From NCBI RefSeq assembly GCF_002356355.1, contig NZ_AP018052.1, forward strand, positions 186,001 through 250,000: DNA of 64,000 nt. The letters are read 5' to 3'. The DNA is from Thiohalobacter thiocyanaticus (lineage in GTDB: Bacteria > Pseudomonadota > Gammaproteobacteria > Thiohalobacterales > Thiohalobacteraceae). A model generated the notes under the pieces. That model had not been told where the DNA came from. It did no database searches and saw only the letters and a list, made by a program, of their open reading frames with translations. The translations under genes and the position numbers were made by a program. Positions 5,058-29,865 of this stretch are shown in pieces. Position 1 is the first letter of the stretch, and every line of letters starts with the position of its first letter.

Positions 5058-6230
5058 TCAGGCGAACAGGACCCGCACCCGGCCGATATCGGTCACGGTT
5101 GTCGCACGTTGTTTGAGCTGCTCGGCCAGGGCCCGGGCGGCATCGCGGCCCTGATCCAGTTCCAGCGGCAGTACCACGTCGATGTGCACCTCGCCATTGA
5201 GGTAGTGCAGGTTGATCTCCTGCACCTGCTCCATTTCCGGGAGCCCGGCCCAGTTTCTGTGCAACTGGCCGAGGAGTTCGCTGCGCAGCGGCAGGTGATC
5301 ACAGGGCGAGGCGCGGGAATCGTCCTCCGGATCCACGTGCACCGTCACATCCGCCACCACGTCGACGTCCCTGAGCAGGGTCTGGCGCACCCGCTCGCCG
5401 ATCTGGTGGCCCTCGGAGACGCTGAGCCTGGGATCGACCTGGACATGCACATCGACCAGGGCATCGCTGCCGCTGCGCCGGGTGCGCAGCATGTGCAACT
5501 CGCGCACACCGCCGACGTCGCGGATGGTGTCACGGATCTGCTGCACCTCGTCTTCCTCCAGGGCGGTGTCGATCAACTCGCGCATGCTGCTCCAACTCAG
5601 GTCCCAGCCGATCTTCGCCACCATCAGGCCCACCAGCACGGCAGCGATGGCATCGAGATAGGGCAGGCCGGCCATGGTGCCGCCGATGCCCACCATCACC
5701 ACGATGGAGGAAATGGCATCCGAACGGCTGTGCCAGGCGTTGGCGCGCAGCATATTGGACTTGATCCGCCGCGCCAGCCGCATGGTGTAATGATAGATCG
5801 CCTCCTTGGACAGCACCGAGAGCAGGGCGACGATCATGGCCCCCATGCCGGGCTGCAGCAGCAGGTCGGGGTGGAACAGCCTCCGCCCGGCATCCCAGAC
5901 GATACCGCCGGCCACCAGGATCAGCGTCACGCCCAGCGCCACCGTCATCAGGGTCTCGATGCGGCCGTGGCCGTAGGGGTGAGAGGCATCGGCCTCGCGA
6001 TGGGCATGCTTGGCGGCGAAGATGACCAGGAAATCGGTGAGCAGATCCGACAGCGAATGGATGCCGTCGGCGATCAGCGCCTGTGAGTGCGCGATCAGCC
6101 CGACGACGATCTTGGCCACGCCCAGGGCGAAGTCCACCACCGAACCGATCAGCGTGACCTTGCGGATCTCGCGGTAGCGCTCGGTATTCCCCGCTGTGGC
6201 GGGGACATGGCTGTGGCTATGGGCGTGCAT
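5058..6230 (-). CDS. Cation diffusion facilitator family transporter
   Basis: Inner-membrane divalent metal exporter driven by proton exchange. Starting at MHAHSHSHVPAT it has 390 residues with a short His-rich N-terminus. The membrane domain carries the paired metal-site motifs HxxxD in TM2 (ADGIHSLSDLL) and HxxxD in TM5 (HSRSDAISS). The combination of His and Asp in both helices favours Zn or Fe as substrate over Mn. The C-terminal part is a long cytoplasmic dimerisation region (from about residue 215), longer than in FieF, with two beta-alpha-beta-like segments. The longer open frame upstream of 6230 overlaps a repeat element and is not used. Confidence 0.9.
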   Translation of the reverse strand: MHAHSHSHVPATAGNTERYREIRKVTLIGSVVDFALGVAKIVVGLIAHSQALIADGIHSLSDLLTDFLVIFAAKHAHREADASHPYGHGRIETLMTVALGVTLILVAGGIVWDAGRRLFHPDLLLQPGMGAMIVALLSVLSKEAIYHYTMRLARRIKSNMLRANAWHSRSDAISSIVVMVGIGGTMAGLPYLDAIAAVLVGLMVAKIGWDLSWSSMRELIDTALEEDEVQQIRDTIRDVGGVRELHMLRTRRSGSDALVDVHVQVDPRLSVSEGHQIGERVRQTLLRDVDVVADVTVHVDPEDDSRASPCDHLPLRSELLGQLHRNWAGLPEMEQVQEINLHYLNGEVHIDVVLPLELDQGRDAARALAEQLKQRATTVTDIGRVRVLFA

Positions 6231-6288
6231 GGGGTTGTGCTCTCGTTTATTGCGCCCGTGTCCGGTTGACCTTATGTGCGGCGATGAT

Positions 6289-6429
6289 AACGCAAAGGAC
6301 GCAGAGACGCAGAGACGCAAAGGAACATGTATTAAGGAAGGGCACTCTTCAGCCGCGTCATGGCGAGGGAAGCAATGTCATTTACATATAAATCGCTTTG
6401 CGCCTCTGCGTCTTTGCGACTTCTGCGTT
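6289..6429. repeat. Inverted-repeat element, family B copy 1 (AACGCAAAGGACGCAGAG type)
   Basis: The left arm (6289-6322) is built of GACGCAGAGACGCAAAGG-like blocks. The right arm (about 6396-6429) is its reverse complement (TTTGCGCCTCTGCGTC...TTCTGCGTT). The central part is unrelated and AT-richer. Copies of the family occur at 7788-7884 and 61777-61988, with a solitary arm near 11777-11800. Confidence 0.75.
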
Positions 6430-6441
6430 GCAGCCGCCCAG

Positions 6442-6675
6442 TCACTCAGTCGAACCCACCCTCACGCTGATGCGTATGTCGCGGCCGTCCTGCTCGATGC
6501 CGACCACCTCGTGGCCGTTGATGCGGCACCAGGTGGGGATGTCGTTGATCGCGCCGGGGTCGGTGCAGCTGACGTGCAGCACATCGCCGGGGTCGAGCTC
6601 GGCGATCGCATCCTGGGTGCGGATCACCGGCAGTGGGCAGAGAATGTTGCGGGCGTCGAGCGTATGTTCGCTCAC
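6442..6675 (-). CDS. TusA-family sulfur carrier protein
   Basis: A 77-residue protein with the TusA signature near the N-terminus (LDARNILCPLPVIRTQDAI). The CPxP cysteine carries persulfide sulfur in this family. Its ATG overlaps the stop of the upstream PP-loop gene by four bases (ATGA), so the two proteins are almost certainly co-translated. TusA proteins relay sulfur to tRNA thiolation enzymes or, in sulfur oxidisers, to sulfur-oxidation enzymes. Pairing with a PP-loop enzyme favours delivery to a thiolation reaction. The C-terminal half (GHEVVGIEQDGRDIRISVRVG) fits the family's last strands. The specific paralogue name cannot be fixed from sequence alone. Confidence 0.9.
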   Translation of the reverse strand: MSEHTLDARNILCPLPVIRTQDAIAELDPGDVLHVSCTDPGAINDIPTWCRINGHEVVGIEQDGRDIRISVRVGSTE

Positions 6676-7709
6676 AGGTACCAGTCCTGACGGATCTCGT
6701 CCGGCGGCAGCGGTCTGACCCGGCGGGTGCTGCTCTCGCCATTGCGGTTGATCTCGACCTCGACCTCGGCCGCGTCACGCCCCTGACTGAAGCGGCCCAG
6801 CAGGCGCGCGGCCAGTTCCAGGTCGGCATCGTCGACTTCGCCGTCGAGCAGCACCAGCGGGCCCTTGTGACTGGTGCTGCGCAGATGGGTGAACTGCTTG
6901 CGGTAACCCTCGAGAAAGTTGTTCTCGCCCTCGTCGCGACCGATGATCAGCTTGAAATTGGACCGCGGACGGATATGCCGGCCGACCTTGAGCAGCATGA
7001 TGTCATCGAGTTCATAGCGACGCTCGCCGCGCGCCTGCCACAGATCGGCCAGCTTGGTCGAATACTGCCTGTCGGTGAGAAAGCAGCAGCCGCCGGCCGG
7101 CTGCGCATAGTCCTCGAAGCCGAACTGCTGTGCCAGCGCCATCTGCGGCTTGCGTGAGCGGCCGCTGAAATCATACAAGCGCTCGCGCTCGACCCAGCCC
7201 TCGCGCTCCGGCAGGGTCTCGGGGAGGTTCTTCGCGCACAGCGGACGCAGCAGCAGATCCTCGGCGCCTGACTCATGCGCCACCACCGGCATGGTATCGG
7301 CGCGCTGCGACTTGGGCCGCTGGCCGATCACTTCGCCGGTGATGATGAAATCGAACCCGTGCGCCTCGATCCACTCGCGCGCCTTGCCGACCATGAACAC
7401 CTTGCAGTCCAGGCAGGGGTTGAGATTGGCGCCGTAGCCGTGTTTCGGATTGATGACGACATCCTTGTACTCCTCGATGATGTCGACGATGTGCAGCTTG
7501 ATGCCGAGCTGCTCGGCCACCCACAGCGCATTGTTGCGTTTCGGTTTGGCCTGGTCCTGATTGCGGATGGCGTGGGTGTGCCCCTCCACGCAGAAGCCGG
7601 TGAAGAAATTGATCCCCTCCACATGAACGCCCTGCTCCATGATGACGCGGGCGGCAAGGAGTGAATCCAGCCCTCCGGAGATGAGTGCGACGGCCTTGCG
7701 TTGTGACAT
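6672..7709 (-). CDS. PP-loop ATP pyrophosphatase with C-terminal DUF814-like domain, putative sulfurtransferase
   Basis: A 345-residue protein with an N-terminal PP-loop (ALISGGLDSLLAARV) as in MnmA/ThiI-type adenylating thiolases. Two cysteine motifs sit where MnmA has its catalytic pair: NPCLDCK near residue 100 and GGCCFL near residue 207. The C-terminal portion (KVGRHIRPRSNFKLIIGRDEGE) resembles the NFACT-R/DUF814 RNA-binding module. This architecture is often annotated as a tRNA 2-thiouridine or 4-thiouridine enzyme, but its substrate is not established by what I can see. The overlap with tusA suggests the carrier protein is its sulfur donor. It is not canonical MnmA or ThiI (no THUMP domain, different C-terminus). 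Confidence 0.82.
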   Translation of the reverse strand: MSQRKAVALISGGLDSLLAARVIMEQGVHVEGINFFTGFCVEGHTHAIRNQDQAKPKRNNALWVAEQLGIKLHIVDIIEEYKDVVINPKHGYGANLNPCLDCKVFMVGKAREWIEAHGFDFIITGEVIGQRPKSQRADTMPVVAHESGAEDLLLRPLCAKNLPETLPEREGWVERERLYDFSGRSRKPQMALAQQFGFEDYAQPAGGCCFLTDRQYSTKLADLWQARGERRYELDDIMLLKVGRHIRPRSNFKLIIGRDEGENNFLEGYRKQFTHLRSTSHKGPLVLLDGEVDDADLELAARLLGRFSQGRDAAEVEVEINRNGESSTRRVRPLPPDEIRQDWYL

Positions 7710-7787: not shown

Positions 7788-7884
7788 GATAACAATGCAG
7801 AGGACGCAAAGGCGCAGAGGCTCAGAGGAATGAAAAAATAAGAAAACCCTGCGTCTCTGTGCCTTTGCGTGCTCTGCGTTATCG
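7788..7884. repeat. Inverted-repeat element, family B copy 2
   Basis: The arms GATAACAATGCAGAGGACGC and GCTCTGCGTTATC face each other, with GCAAAGGCGCAGAG / CTCTGTGCCTTTGC inside and a short AT-rich centre. It lies between the PP-loop gene and the 190-residue gene. Confidence 0.75.
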
Positions 7885-7933: not shown

Positions 7934-8506
7934 TCAGTGGGGTTTTTCCGTGTCCTCGTCCAGCGGGATCGGGATGACGCCGGTCTGGCGCCGATACTGC
8001 GCGAAGGCCCGCCGGCTGCCGGTCTGCTGCCACAGTTCGGCATTGTGCAGGGGGTCGAGTACAGCTTCGCGGTCGAGTTCGCGCATGGTCTGCAGCACAT
8101 CGCGCAGGTGCACGAAGGCCTCGGCCAGCTGGGCATAGACCTCGGCCGTGGCATGGCGCAGGCGCTCGGCCAGGGTGCCGTAGGCGCTGCGGCCCAGGTC
8201 GACGAAATAGGTATGGTTCACCAGCCGGCGGCGGGCCTGTTCGGGATAGAAACCGGAATACAGCAGGCACTGATCCCCCACGTCGCGCAGCTGTTCCTCC
8301 TGCAGCCGGCCGCGGGATGACATGCCGTGGAGAAAATCGAGCGCGATCACCCGGGCGGCCAGCTCCGGCCGCGAGGTGAACCGCATCAGCAGGAACACCA
8401 GGTAGCTCTGCAACTCCTGGTCGAGGTGGGTCGCGCAGGCCTGTTCGGCCTCGTTGACCAGCGCCTGCCACTGCGCCGTGGACGTGGGGTGAAGGACCAG
8501 CTTCAT
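7934..8506 (-). CDS. Conserved hypothetical protein
   Basis: I do not recognise a named family. The protein has 190 residues, is acidic to neutral, and looks entirely alpha-helical with no signal peptide or membrane segment. The start MKLVLHPTSTAQW is chosen because GGGAGG lies five bases upstream; a GTG six bases earlier is in frame. Another frame covers the same span on this strand (7929-8519), but its composition is arginine/proline/glycine-rich in the way typical of out-of-frame GC-rich translations. The segment LLYSGFYPEQARRRLVNHTYFVDLG looks conserved-like. It stands alone between repeats and the glyQ promoter region. Confidence 0.75.
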   Translation of the reverse strand: MKLVLHPTSTAQWQALVNEAEQACATHLDQELQSYLVFLLMRFTSRPELAARVIALDFLHGMSSRGRLQEEQLRDVGDQCLLYSGFYPEQARRRLVNHTYFVDLGRSAYGTLAERLRHATAEVYAQLAEAFVHLRDVLQTMRELDREAVLDPLHNAELWQQTGSRRAFAQYRRQTGVIPIPLDEDTEKPH

Positions 8507-8687
8507 GGGCACCTCCCAATCAATATATCGGTCCGGGCCGCAGGGGCCTTTACAGTTTATTGACTAGCAGATTCCGGGCCAGGTTCGGTCTGAACGGCCT
8601 GCCCGGCGGCACCTGACACTCAATATACCCAATTCCCGATTCCGGCAGAAACTCCCCGTCGGCGCGGATCCGTGCCGGATTTTCTCT

Positions 8688-27033: not shown

Positions 27034-27618
27034 ATGATCGATAACGTCCATATCGAACTCACGGCCTACCATGAGGCTGCCCACGCTATCGTGGCCCTCT
27101 ACCATGGTTATGCGGTTACAGAGGTGGCGGTCTCGCTTGAGGCGCCTGGGAATGGGGTGATGATGTATCAACCCAGGTTGAAACGGGAACTCTCTGATCC
27201 AAGGTCTGGCAATATCCGGGCGGCCTGGCTGGAGACATTGAAGAAGTACGAGGGCGAGATTCGCATTCTGCTTGCAGGCCCCCTGTCGGAAGCGAAACTG
27301 CTGAATACCCCACTGCGCTCACTTGGAGCAAGATCGGACCTGCTGACTGCCCAGAGTTTCCACCTGCGGCTGCAGGACATACAGATTGAGATGTCCCGAT
27401 ATACCACTCTCCCCAAGCCGCTTCCGGCCCGGCACCTGGACAAGCTCCGGAGAGAGACGCGTGCCCTTCTTGGGCGACCAAGAATGTGGGAGATGGTGTG
27501 CGCCCTGGCGAGTGAACTGAAAGATATTGATTGCCTCAATGCGGATGAAATAGCGGCGATTCTTCAGCAGATCCCGGATCGGTACGGGCAGCTGGGGTTG
27601 GACGACTTATTCAAGTAA
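27034..27618 (+). CDS. Stand-alone M41 (FtsH-like) zinc peptidase domain protein
   Basis: 194 residues with the zinc-binding motif HEAAH in TAYHEAAHAIVALYHGY, aligned with HEAGHA of FtsH. Further M41-like features follow in order: NGVMMYQP (FtsH ALGVTMFLP), EIRILLAGPLSEAKLL (RIAVLLGGRVAEEL) and GARSDLLTA (GASNDLKQA), whose Asp would be the third zinc ligand. No AAA+ domain and no membrane segment are present, so it is the protease half of an FtsH-like enzyme alone. The role is unknown; proteolysis of an island regulator is one possibility. Upstream lie the phased repeats and possibly a promoter. Confidence 0.8.
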   Translation: MIDNVHIELTAYHEAAHAIVALYHGYAVTEVAVSLEAPGNGVMMYQPRLKRELSDPRSGNIRAAWLETLKKYEGEIRILLAGPLSEAKLLNTPLRSLGARSDLLTAQSFHLRLQDIQIEMSRYTTLPKPLPARHLDKLRRETRALLGRPRMWEMVCALASELKDIDCLNADEIAAILQQIPDRYGQLGLDDLFK

Positions 27619-27900
27619 AGTCAAACAGTAAAAACATCATATTTATATTTTATAAACAATACTTTACGTATGTATCCTGCATATTAAATCTTGATTTCAA
27701 TCAAAATTGTGCAGCCGTCTTTCTGGCTAGGGAAATAGCCTTCCAGATATGTCAGACTGGTAAAGTAATGTTCCTTTTACTGAAATTGACGATGTGACAG
27801 ATCGTGACGGATTCATTGATGCCAGATGGGCTATTCCACCATAATTTTCCTAGCTAAGCTGCTAGAAAAGAACAACAAAATTCTAATTTACTAATACGCC
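27619..27900 (+). promoter_or_regulatory. AT-rich regulatory gap upstream of hsdM
   Basis: 282 AT-rich bases without a plausible gene. It contains small palindromes: TTGATTTCAATCAA at 27691-27704 and TAGCTAAGCTGCTA near 27854. They may be operator sites. No convincing ribosome-binding site precedes the hsdM ATG. Confidence 0.45.
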
Positions 27901-29865
27901 ATGACCGAGAACTTCTCCTCCACCGCCGCTTTCATCTGGTCCGTCGCAGACCTGCTCCGGGGCGACTTCAAGCAGTCCCAGTACGGCCGCATCATTCTGC
28001 CGTTCACCCTGCTGCGCCGCCTGGAGTGCGTCCTGGCACCGAGCAAGGCCAAGGTGCTCAAGGAGTACGACAAGCGCAAGGAGTCGGGCCTGGCGATAGA
28101 TGGCTTCCTGAAGAAGGCCGCCGGGTTGCCCTTCTACAACACCTCGCCCATGGACCTGTCCGCCCTGGGCGAGACCCAGATCCTGGACAACCTGGACACC
28201 TACATCCGCAGCTTCAGCTCGGAGGCGCGGGACATCTTCGAGCACTTCGGCTTCTTCGGCTTCCTGGAGAAGCTGGACGAGGCCAACCTGCTCTACCTGG
28301 TCGTGCAGAAGTTCGCCACCATGGACCTCAGCCCCAAGACCCTCAACAACTACCACATGGGCCTGGTGTTCGAGGAGCTGATCCGCCGCTTCGCGGAATC
28401 CTCCAACGAAACCGCCGGAGAGCACTTCACCCCTCGGGATATCGTCCGCTTGACCACGGCCCTGCTGTTCACCACCCAGCAGGAGAAGATCGCCCCTGGC
28501 AAGATCGTCACCGTCTACGACCCCACGGCCGGGACCGGCGGCTTCCTGTCCGAGGGGGAGGAGTACATCCACTCCATCTCCGAGCAGGCCCGTGTCACTG
28601 TTTTCGGACAGGAGCTCAATCCCGAGTCCTACGCCATCTGCAAGGGTGACATGCTGGTCAAGGGCCACGAGATCCAGAACATCAAGCTGGGTAACACCCT
28701 GTCCGACGACCAGCTCACCGGGCAGCCATTCGACTTCATGCTCTCCAATCCGCCCTTCGGCGTGGACTGGAAGAAGGTGCAGAAGCAGGTCCAGGCCGAG
28801 CACAAGAACAAGGGCTTCGCCGGGCGCTTCGGCCCGGGCCTGCCCCGTGTCTCCGACGGCTCCCTACTGTTCCTGATGCATCTGATGAGCAAGATGCGCG
28901 ATCCCAAGGAAGGCGGCTCCCGCATCGGCATCATCCTCAACGGCTCGCCGCTGTTCACTGGCGGGGCCGGTTCCGGCGAGTCTGAGATCCGGCGCTACAT
29001 CTTGGAGCACGACCTGCTGGAGGCCATTGTCGCCCTGCCCACGGATATGTTCTACAACACCGGCATCGCCACCTATGTGTGGATCCTGTCCAACAACAAG
29101 ATCCCGGAGCGCCGGGGCAAGGTCCAGCTCATCAACGCCACGGATATGGGCGAGAAGATGCGCAAATCGCTGGGCTCCAAGCGCAAGTACCTCACCGAGG
29201 ACAGCATCGACGCCATCGTCAAACAATACGGCGACTTCAAGCCCAGCGAGACCTGCAAGATCTTCAAGACGACCGATTTCGGCTACCGCCGTATCACCGT
29301 CGAGCGCCCACTCCAGCTTGCATTCTACCCCAAGGACGAGATCCGGCTGGCCGCCTTACAGGCCGACAAGGGCTGGGCCAAACTGGATGCGTCGCTGCAA
29401 CAGGCCATCCTGGATGCATTGGCCCGATTCGAGGAGGAGAAGGTCCTCTCGCGGACCACGTTCAAGAAGTGGCTCAAGGTCCACATGGACGACGAGAAGC
29501 TGCCTGCACCCGCCTTCAAGCTGTTGCAGAAGCATCTGGGCGAGCACGATGAGGAAGCCGAGCTCTGCAAGGCCAAGGGCCAGGCCGAGCCCGATCCGGA
29601 GCTGCGGGATTATGAGAATGTGCCGCTGAGCGAGAATATCCGGGACTACTTCCAACGCGAAGTGCTTCCGCATGTGCCCAATGCCTGGATTGATGAGACC
29701 AAGAAAGATGAGCGGGATGGGCAGGTCGGTATTGTCGGCTACGAAATCCCCTTCAATCGGCATTTCTACAAGTATGTGCCGCCGCGCCCGCTGGAGGAGA
29801 TCGACGCGGACCTGGATAAGGTGAGTCAGGAGATCATGGGCTTGCTTTCAGAGGTGCATGCCTGA
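27901..29865 (+). CDS. hsdM: Type I restriction-modification system methyltransferase subunit
   Basis: 654 residues; transfers methyl groups from AdoMet to adenine N6. An N-terminal HsdM helical domain ([20 protein letters not shown]) is followed by the Rossmann methylase domain. Motif I is [14 protein letters not shown] at about residue 205, and motif IV (catalytic NPPF) is [13 protein letters not shown] at about 283. The C-terminal extension beyond residue 400 is long and charged and probably contacts HsdS. The stop overlaps the hsdS start by one base (TGATG). The GC content is high, like the host, although its neighbours in the island are not. Confidence 0.96.

Follow-up and report, generated by a model that had tools for sequence, protein, structure and literature searches.

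A THUMP-less PP-loop/NFACT-R_2 enzyme paired with its own TusA: a probable tRNA 4-thiouridine synthase in ThiI-less Gammaproteobacteria

Two overlapping genes of Thiohalobacter thiocyanaticus probably encode a tRNA 4-thiouridine (s4U8) synthase and its own TusA carrier, a pair that would replace ThiI. They lie in a 64,000-nucleotide stretch of the genome (the window, to which all positions refer). The thiolated base would be U8 of tRNA, converted to s4U8, a substrate that we assign with fair confidence from phylogenetic profiles, fold, mutual exclusion with ThiI and a link to the s4U eraser RudS. According to the accessible text of PMC11417400, many bacteria modify their tRNA with s4U8, which near-UV light targets, and ThiI is considered the principal enzyme that produces it.

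Results

An overlapping enzyme/TusA gene pair

A sequence-only reading of the window had described a sulfur carrier and a PP-loop enzyme encoded by overlapping genes. Both genes are present there, on the minus strand, with the following features:

6672..7709, minus strand: PP-loop + NFACT-R_2 enzyme, 345 aa, the proposed THUMP-less tRNA s4U8 synthase
7662..7679, minus strand: PP-loop signature SGGLDS (residues 11-16)
7590..7592, minus strand: C40
7401..7421, minus strand: NPCLDCK (residues 97-103), with C99 and C102
7077..7094, minus strand: GGCCFL (residues 206-211), with C208 and C209
6678..6983, minus strand: NFACT-R_2 domain (residues 243-344), proposed to bind tRNA instead of a THUMP domain
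6672..6675, minus strand: 4-base stop/start overlap GTGA
6442..6675, minus strand: 77-aa sulfur carrier of the TusA family, with a GTG start; its clade accompanies the PP-loop/NFACT-R_2 enzyme
6628..6639, minus strand: CPxP motif of TusA (CPLP in LCPLP, Cys13), the proposed persulfide carrier

The overlap had been given as ATGA; the shared bases are GTGA on the coding strand, the TGA stop of the enzyme running into the GTG start of TusA. Among relatives, the enzyme/TusA junction is ATGA in 50 of the 142 distinct proteins and GTGA in 33. A chance overlap of open reading frames is ruled out by the conservation of the enzyme among relatives, and the GTGA sequence suggests that translation of the enzyme and TusA may be coupled. 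A scan of three neighbouring ORFs found no cysteine desulfurase.

A FieF-like CDF cation transporter is encoded after TusA (5058-6320, minus strand). Among the named loci, 70 have 1.5 kb or more of downstream sequence; TusA is adjacent to the enzyme in 65 of them and a CDF transporter comes next in 59, often with glnA following. Four loci from another class (L160, L161, L166 and L169) have the transporter after the pair too. On the other side, a 192-residue protein of no clear family is encoded (7934-8512, minus strand), and homologues of it lie upstream of the enzyme in 25 of these 70 loci, in which the upstream room varies. Short GACGCAGAGACGC-like repeats, in both orientations, flank the pair on either side (6298-6420 and 7803-7863); the window contains 10 matches where 3.4 are expected, and six of the 10 flank the pair.

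Domain architecture and predicted fold of the enzyme

Within residues 2-159, the enzyme matches the Pfam PP-loop thiolation families PF03054 (tRNA_Me_trans) and PF02568 (ThiI), the latter with 43.9 bits for a gathering score of 20.5, as expected of a ThiI-type PP-loop domain. Residues 243-344 match PF18297, NFACT-R_2 (E 5e-35, 120.1 bits against 26.9), which agrees with the earlier impression of a different C-terminus of RNA-binding appearance. The label 'DUF814' attached to it was loose: PF05670, which we take to be NFACT-R_1, the former DUF814, gave no match at E <= 1. 'Thiolase-like' was a wrong term for a fold that is that of thiolation enzymes.

Pfam gave no match to THUMP or rhodanese in the enzyme and none to NFACT-N at E <= 1, so that it falls outside the RqcH/NEMF type. 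The PRC-barrel and beta-barrel domains of MnmA are also absent by Pfam, and present in the true MnmA of the same genome. The whole-protein ThiI equivalog TIGR00342, with its N-terminal ferredoxin-like and THUMP parts, was matched over profile positions 171-314 only, with 45.1 bits for a cut-off of 264.5. NCBIfam MnmA equivalogs gave 49.1 bits for a cut-off of 284 and 45.4 for 236.95.

The AlphaFold2 model of the enzyme has a mean pLDDT of 89.6 and a pTM of 0.84, with weaker blocks near the cysteines (residues 41-50, 91-100 and 201-210, with mean pLDDT of 56, 67 and 67). Structural matches that differ by less than 1 in Z were considered tied. The PP-loop half (first ~240 residues) matches YcfA (Z 15.3) and ThiI (4kr6, 14.8; 2c5s, 14.5), then LarE (13.8) and MnmA (13.1); because the Z values are tied, the fold does not decide between ThiI and YcfA. 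Residues 241-345 match the NFACT-R domains of FBPS (5h3w, Z 14.2) and RqcH (8s1u, 13.9) and CCDC25 (12.5).

The enzyme thus shares with ThiI/TtuI a PP-loop thiolation domain (25-26% identity at Z 14.5-14.8) and, as we propose, the s4U8 product, but it differs in the absence of THUMP and rhodanese matches, in its order of PP-loop then NFACT-R_2 and in its pairing with TusA. It resembles MnmA in the PP-loop HUP domain and in a CxxC (DxxC in E. coli) plus a second cysteine at the same places, and differs from it in domain content, in its score and in coexisting with MnmA itself. What it has in common with RqcH/NEMF, FBPS and CCDC25 is the fold of the C-terminal 100 residues (Z 12-14), fused here to a PP-loop domain instead of accompanying NFACT-N.

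Small-molecule enzymes stand high among these fold matches, namely LarE and YcfA, which is tied with ThiI and whose substrate we take to be a small molecule. It is nevertheless highly improbable that the enzyme thiolates a small molecule (cofactor, thiopurine or thiamine sulfur) instead of RNA. Its C-terminal fold is shared by RqcH, a protein reported to act together with tRNA on ribosomes; the family is linked to the s4U eraser RudS (see below); and its usual neighbours are TusA, the CDF transporter and glnA, with no biosynthetic cluster. The C-terminal fold alone is no proof of RNA binding, since CCDC25, titled a dsDNA sensor, shares it.

Relatives of the enzyme

Of 36 other related genomes, 19 encode a relative with 64-98% identity that aligns over the full length (in one case from residue 29 on); a wider tally of 26/37 counts the genome of T. 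thiocyanaticus itself and short MnmA-like matches. In named genomes, at least 561 stretches encode a relative at E <= 1e-3, a number in which distant PP-loop proteins may be included. The best 80 of these are 71-94% identical in the best segment and, by record title, nearly all gammaproteobacterial, with T. thiocyanaticus Hrh1, Sedimenticola, Cycloclasticus, Methylomicrobium and Ca. Thiodiazotropha among them. One relative comes from a record titled Halobacteria archaeon, which we took for a mislabelled bin. Three plasmid records carry a relative, all fusobacterial, one of which (2.1 Mb) was taken for a chromosome. On viral contigs, a search for close relatives gave 17 pattern hits and no confirmed one.

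Two sets of conserved cysteines

Conservation was followed in an alignment of 156 rows, in which the window protein appears twice and other classes and two Fusobacteriota are included. In the SGGLDS signature, whose role is presumably ATP binding/adenylation, G13 is kept in 156/156 rows and S11, G12, D15 and S16 in 155/156, the sole exception (div_L196) having its aligned N-terminus missing. The two cysteine motifs picked out in the sequence-only reading, NPCLDCK and GGCCFL, are both found. C99, C102 and C209 are invariant, and all 156 rows thereby display the CxxC + C pattern that we take to be the layout of [4Fe-4S] thiolation enzymes (TtuA, Fe-S MnmA and archaeal TtuI). C209 aligns with the cysteine of GICFIGE in E. 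coli MnmA (C199).

C40 and C208 are each kept in 150 rows and are missing jointly in the same six. No TusA match was detected near these six sequences in the 1.4-3.8 kb seen downstream; their losses possibly represent as few as one or two events. The cysteine pattern sets TusA-linked forms of the enzyme apart from TusA-free forms. We infer from this sequence pattern that C40 and C208 may belong to the hand-over of sulfur from TusA, and that C99, C102 and C209 may constitute the catalytic core.

NFACT-R_2 homologues without C40 and C208 and without an adjacent TusA are encoded by Fusobacterium animalis (L152) and Haliovirga abyssi (L153), where they are annotated as 'MnmA/TRMU family protein' and '7-cyano-7-deazaguanine synthase', respectively.

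A TusA clade that accompanies the enzyme

E. coli TusA relays sulfur to MnmA. The partner TusA resembles it in belonging to PF01206 (81.2 bits against 28.6) and in having the CPxP cysteine, but its gene overlaps that of a thiolation enzyme and its score with the E. coli-type TusA equivalog PRK00299 (NCBIfam) is 47.9 for a cut-off of 78; the NCBIfam cut-off for YedF is not reached either. Thirty-four sampled adjacent TusAs form one clade (98/92), apart from E. coli TusA and from five other TusA-family genes of the T. thiocyanaticus genome, in a tree built on few columns and with bootstrap values not fully settled.

We searched the neighbourhoods of the enzyme with a TusA profile built from partner TusAs. 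The 153 enzyme loci correspond to 142 proteins that are distinct when the last 330 residues are compared. Enough downstream sequence for the search is available at 137 distinct loci, and at 120 of these a TusA match starts no more than 300 bases from the enzyme. Of the remaining 17, three have a TusA match at 650-800 bases and one is masked. Long open frames were seen at enzyme loci, and a TusA-enzyme fusion was considered. At one locus (L189, genome G039), only a stop-containing remnant of the enzyme gene is left and the nearby TusA has lost its CPxP cysteine, the CDF gene being open; this co-decay, a single case, fits the expectation that the partner TusA serves the enzyme. A divergent full-length relative (L027, 64% identity) has an altered GHTH region and no TusA next door.

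The frequency of the pairing, the single clade of the sampled partner TusAs, the decay of TusA along with the enzyme in G039 and the loss of C40 and C208 where TusA is absent all argue against a scheme in which a [4Fe-4S] cluster of the enzyme holds sulfide as the donor for s4U8, with TusA kept for regulation or for supplying other pathways. We consider this scheme unlikely, although the invariance of C99, C102 and C209 and the existence of relatives without an adjacent TusA would suit it, as would the Fe-S ThiI of Methanococcus, said in the accessible text of PMC9957541 to take S2- as donor.

The enzyme family and ThiI exclude each other in the genomes sampled

We analyzed an even draw of 281 gammaproteobacterial genomes with a completeness of 95% or more. 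The family was called from best matches of at least 412 bits, the best match of every other genome being at E 4e-10 or weaker, and ThiI was called with TIGR00342 at E <= 1e-15 (23 genomes, 21 of them over the curated cut-off). The enzyme family was present in 142 genomes and ThiI in 23, with both in none and neither in 116 (Fisher p 3.4e-8). Counted by family of genomes (148 families), the enzyme occurs in 73, ThiI in 19 and both in 0. In a phylum-wide sample of 179 genomes that includes other classes, 29 had the enzyme, 60 ThiI, none both and 90 neither; 3 of these 29 enzyme-bearing genomes belong to the class sample too. This exclusion can stem from clade history, as the enzyme and ThiI each cluster by family, with only 15 mixed families, and were counted without a species tree.

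Among ThiI, MnmA and TtcA, only ThiI is exclusive with the enzyme family. MnmA (E <= 1e-40) was found in 139 of the 142 enzyme genomes, 22 of the 23 ThiI genomes and 111 of the 116 with neither, and a TtcA-like gene (E <= 1e-40) in 126/142, 19/23 and 85/116; the curated TtcA cut-off is passed in 132/281 genomes only. A role as substitute for MnmA or for TtcA was rejected on these counts of coexistence. The genome of T. thiocyanaticus itself contains MnmA, a TtcA-like gene below the curated cut-off and a full RudS (PF04463+PF08349), and a TIGR00342 search found no ThiI in it. Eight enzyme-bearing genomes from the named loci, with Methylomicrobium sp. wino1 as an example, and one Fusobacterium vincentii record likewise have no ThiI over the cut-off; the ThiI-profile matches at E <= 1e-8 in these nine are weak and cover the PP-loop part.

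The enzyme might instead thiolate another RNA site (2-thiouridine 34, 2-thiocytidine 32, rRNA or a new thionucleoside), the exclusion of ThiI being a by-product of clade history. Its NCBIfam scores are as close to MnmA (E 4e-13) as to ThiI (7e-12), and its GGCCFL cysteine aligns with the second cysteine of MnmA, both in keeping with such a site. The s2U34 and s2C32 jobs, however, look filled, since MnmA and TtcA-like genes coexist with the enzyme, and the RudS domain tracks the enzyme and ThiI, being found in 0/116 and 0/90 of the genomes with neither. Thiolation of another RNA site appears distinctly unlikely to us.

The s4U eraser RudS follows the enzyme and ThiI

RudS, a fusion of TudS with DUF1722, takes sulfur off s4U in tRNA, as stated in the accessible text of PMC11417400; for groups that have RudS and no ThiI, the same text suggests either ThiI homologues of other architecture or the absence of s4U. 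It also describes PF08349 (DUF1722) as a stand-alone domain in YbgA of E. coli. The full PF04463+PF08349 architecture was established in the T. thiocyanaticus genome; elsewhere our RudS counts are counts of the PF08349 domain.

In the 281 genomes, PF08349 was present in 67 of the 142 with the enzyme and in 12 of the 23 with ThiI, and in none of the 116 with neither. A stricter threshold (E <= 1e-20) gave 60/142, 12/23 and 0/116, and counting by family gave 44/73, 10/19 and 0/56. The same distribution was seen phylum-wide (16/29, 38/60 and 0/90). Within the 15 families that are mixed for a writer (the enzyme or ThiI), PF08349 occurs in 9 of 18 writer genomes and in 0 of 22 others, and within-family permutation gave p about 8e-4. 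The link is one-sided, since 75 of the 142 enzyme genomes have no RudS domain. ThiI is absent from 67 of the 79 DUF1722-bearing genomes of the 281-genome sample.

Genome reduction as the full cause of RudS absence was rejected, the genomes with neither writer including some of 5.1, 4.8 and 5.7 Mb (G085, G097 and G185). In one genome (G266, contig 25), a gene with the DUF1722 domain (27078-27428) directly adjoins ThiI (27505-28575), forming a writer-eraser neighbourhood.

Discussion

The sequence-only reading had suggested that the pair might thiolate RNA with a dedicated sulfur donor. This is backed by the architecture, the fold, the conservation of cysteines, the kept pairing, the separate TusA clade and the phylogenetic profiles. 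Burroughs and Aravind, in a computational study in RNA Biology in 2014, reportedly proposed that this architecture and TusA-like proteins make up a pathway for tRNA 4-thiouridylation. Architecture, partner and proposed product all agree with that reported prediction, and the enzyme class is for this reason not new; the exclusion with ThiI and the link to RudS were put to the test in the present analysis. The PF02568-PF18297 combination was also used as one 4-thiouridylation marker in a 2022 paper, in its accessible text (PMC9239080), and on both counts the system was less 'unassigned' than the sequence-only reading had it. Among the papers listed in our search of open-licence PMC literature, none was seen to report an experiment on the enzyme family or a thionucleoside measurement on its members. 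The present analysis adds a genome-scale exclusion test that might have failed but held, the RudS link and the cysteine pattern.

In the mechanism that we propose for s4U8 synthesis, the NFACT-R_2 domain would bind tRNA and the PP-loop domain, with ATP, would adenylate the 4-oxygen of U8. Sulfur from a cysteine desulfurase would ride as a persulfide on Cys13 of TusA until it is passed to the enzyme, with C208 or C40 as the probable acceptor. The site made of C99, C102 and C209 would deliver it to C4 of the uridine; like related thiolation enzymes of the PP-loop type, this site may contain a [4Fe-4S] cluster. RudS, encoded elsewhere in many of the same genomes, could strip the sulfur again.

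We think it likely that these proteins represent a second widespread kind of s4U8 synthase, which has no THUMP domain, finds its tRNA through an NFACT-R domain of the ribosome-rescue type and uses a TusA of its own. It would take the place of ThiI in roughly every second gammaproteobacterial family of our sample (73/148) and would explain s4U in RudS-bearing bacteria without ThiI, and its TusA-less forms, such as the fusobacterial ones, would run on sulfide. If the proposal is true, the two fusobacterial relatives are mislabelled under their present annotations. For the question left open in the RudS paper, that of genomes with RudS and without ThiI, an answer is suggested by the exclusion of ThiI together with the RudS counts, and the pair described here would be a named candidate for the s4U8 maker of these genomes.
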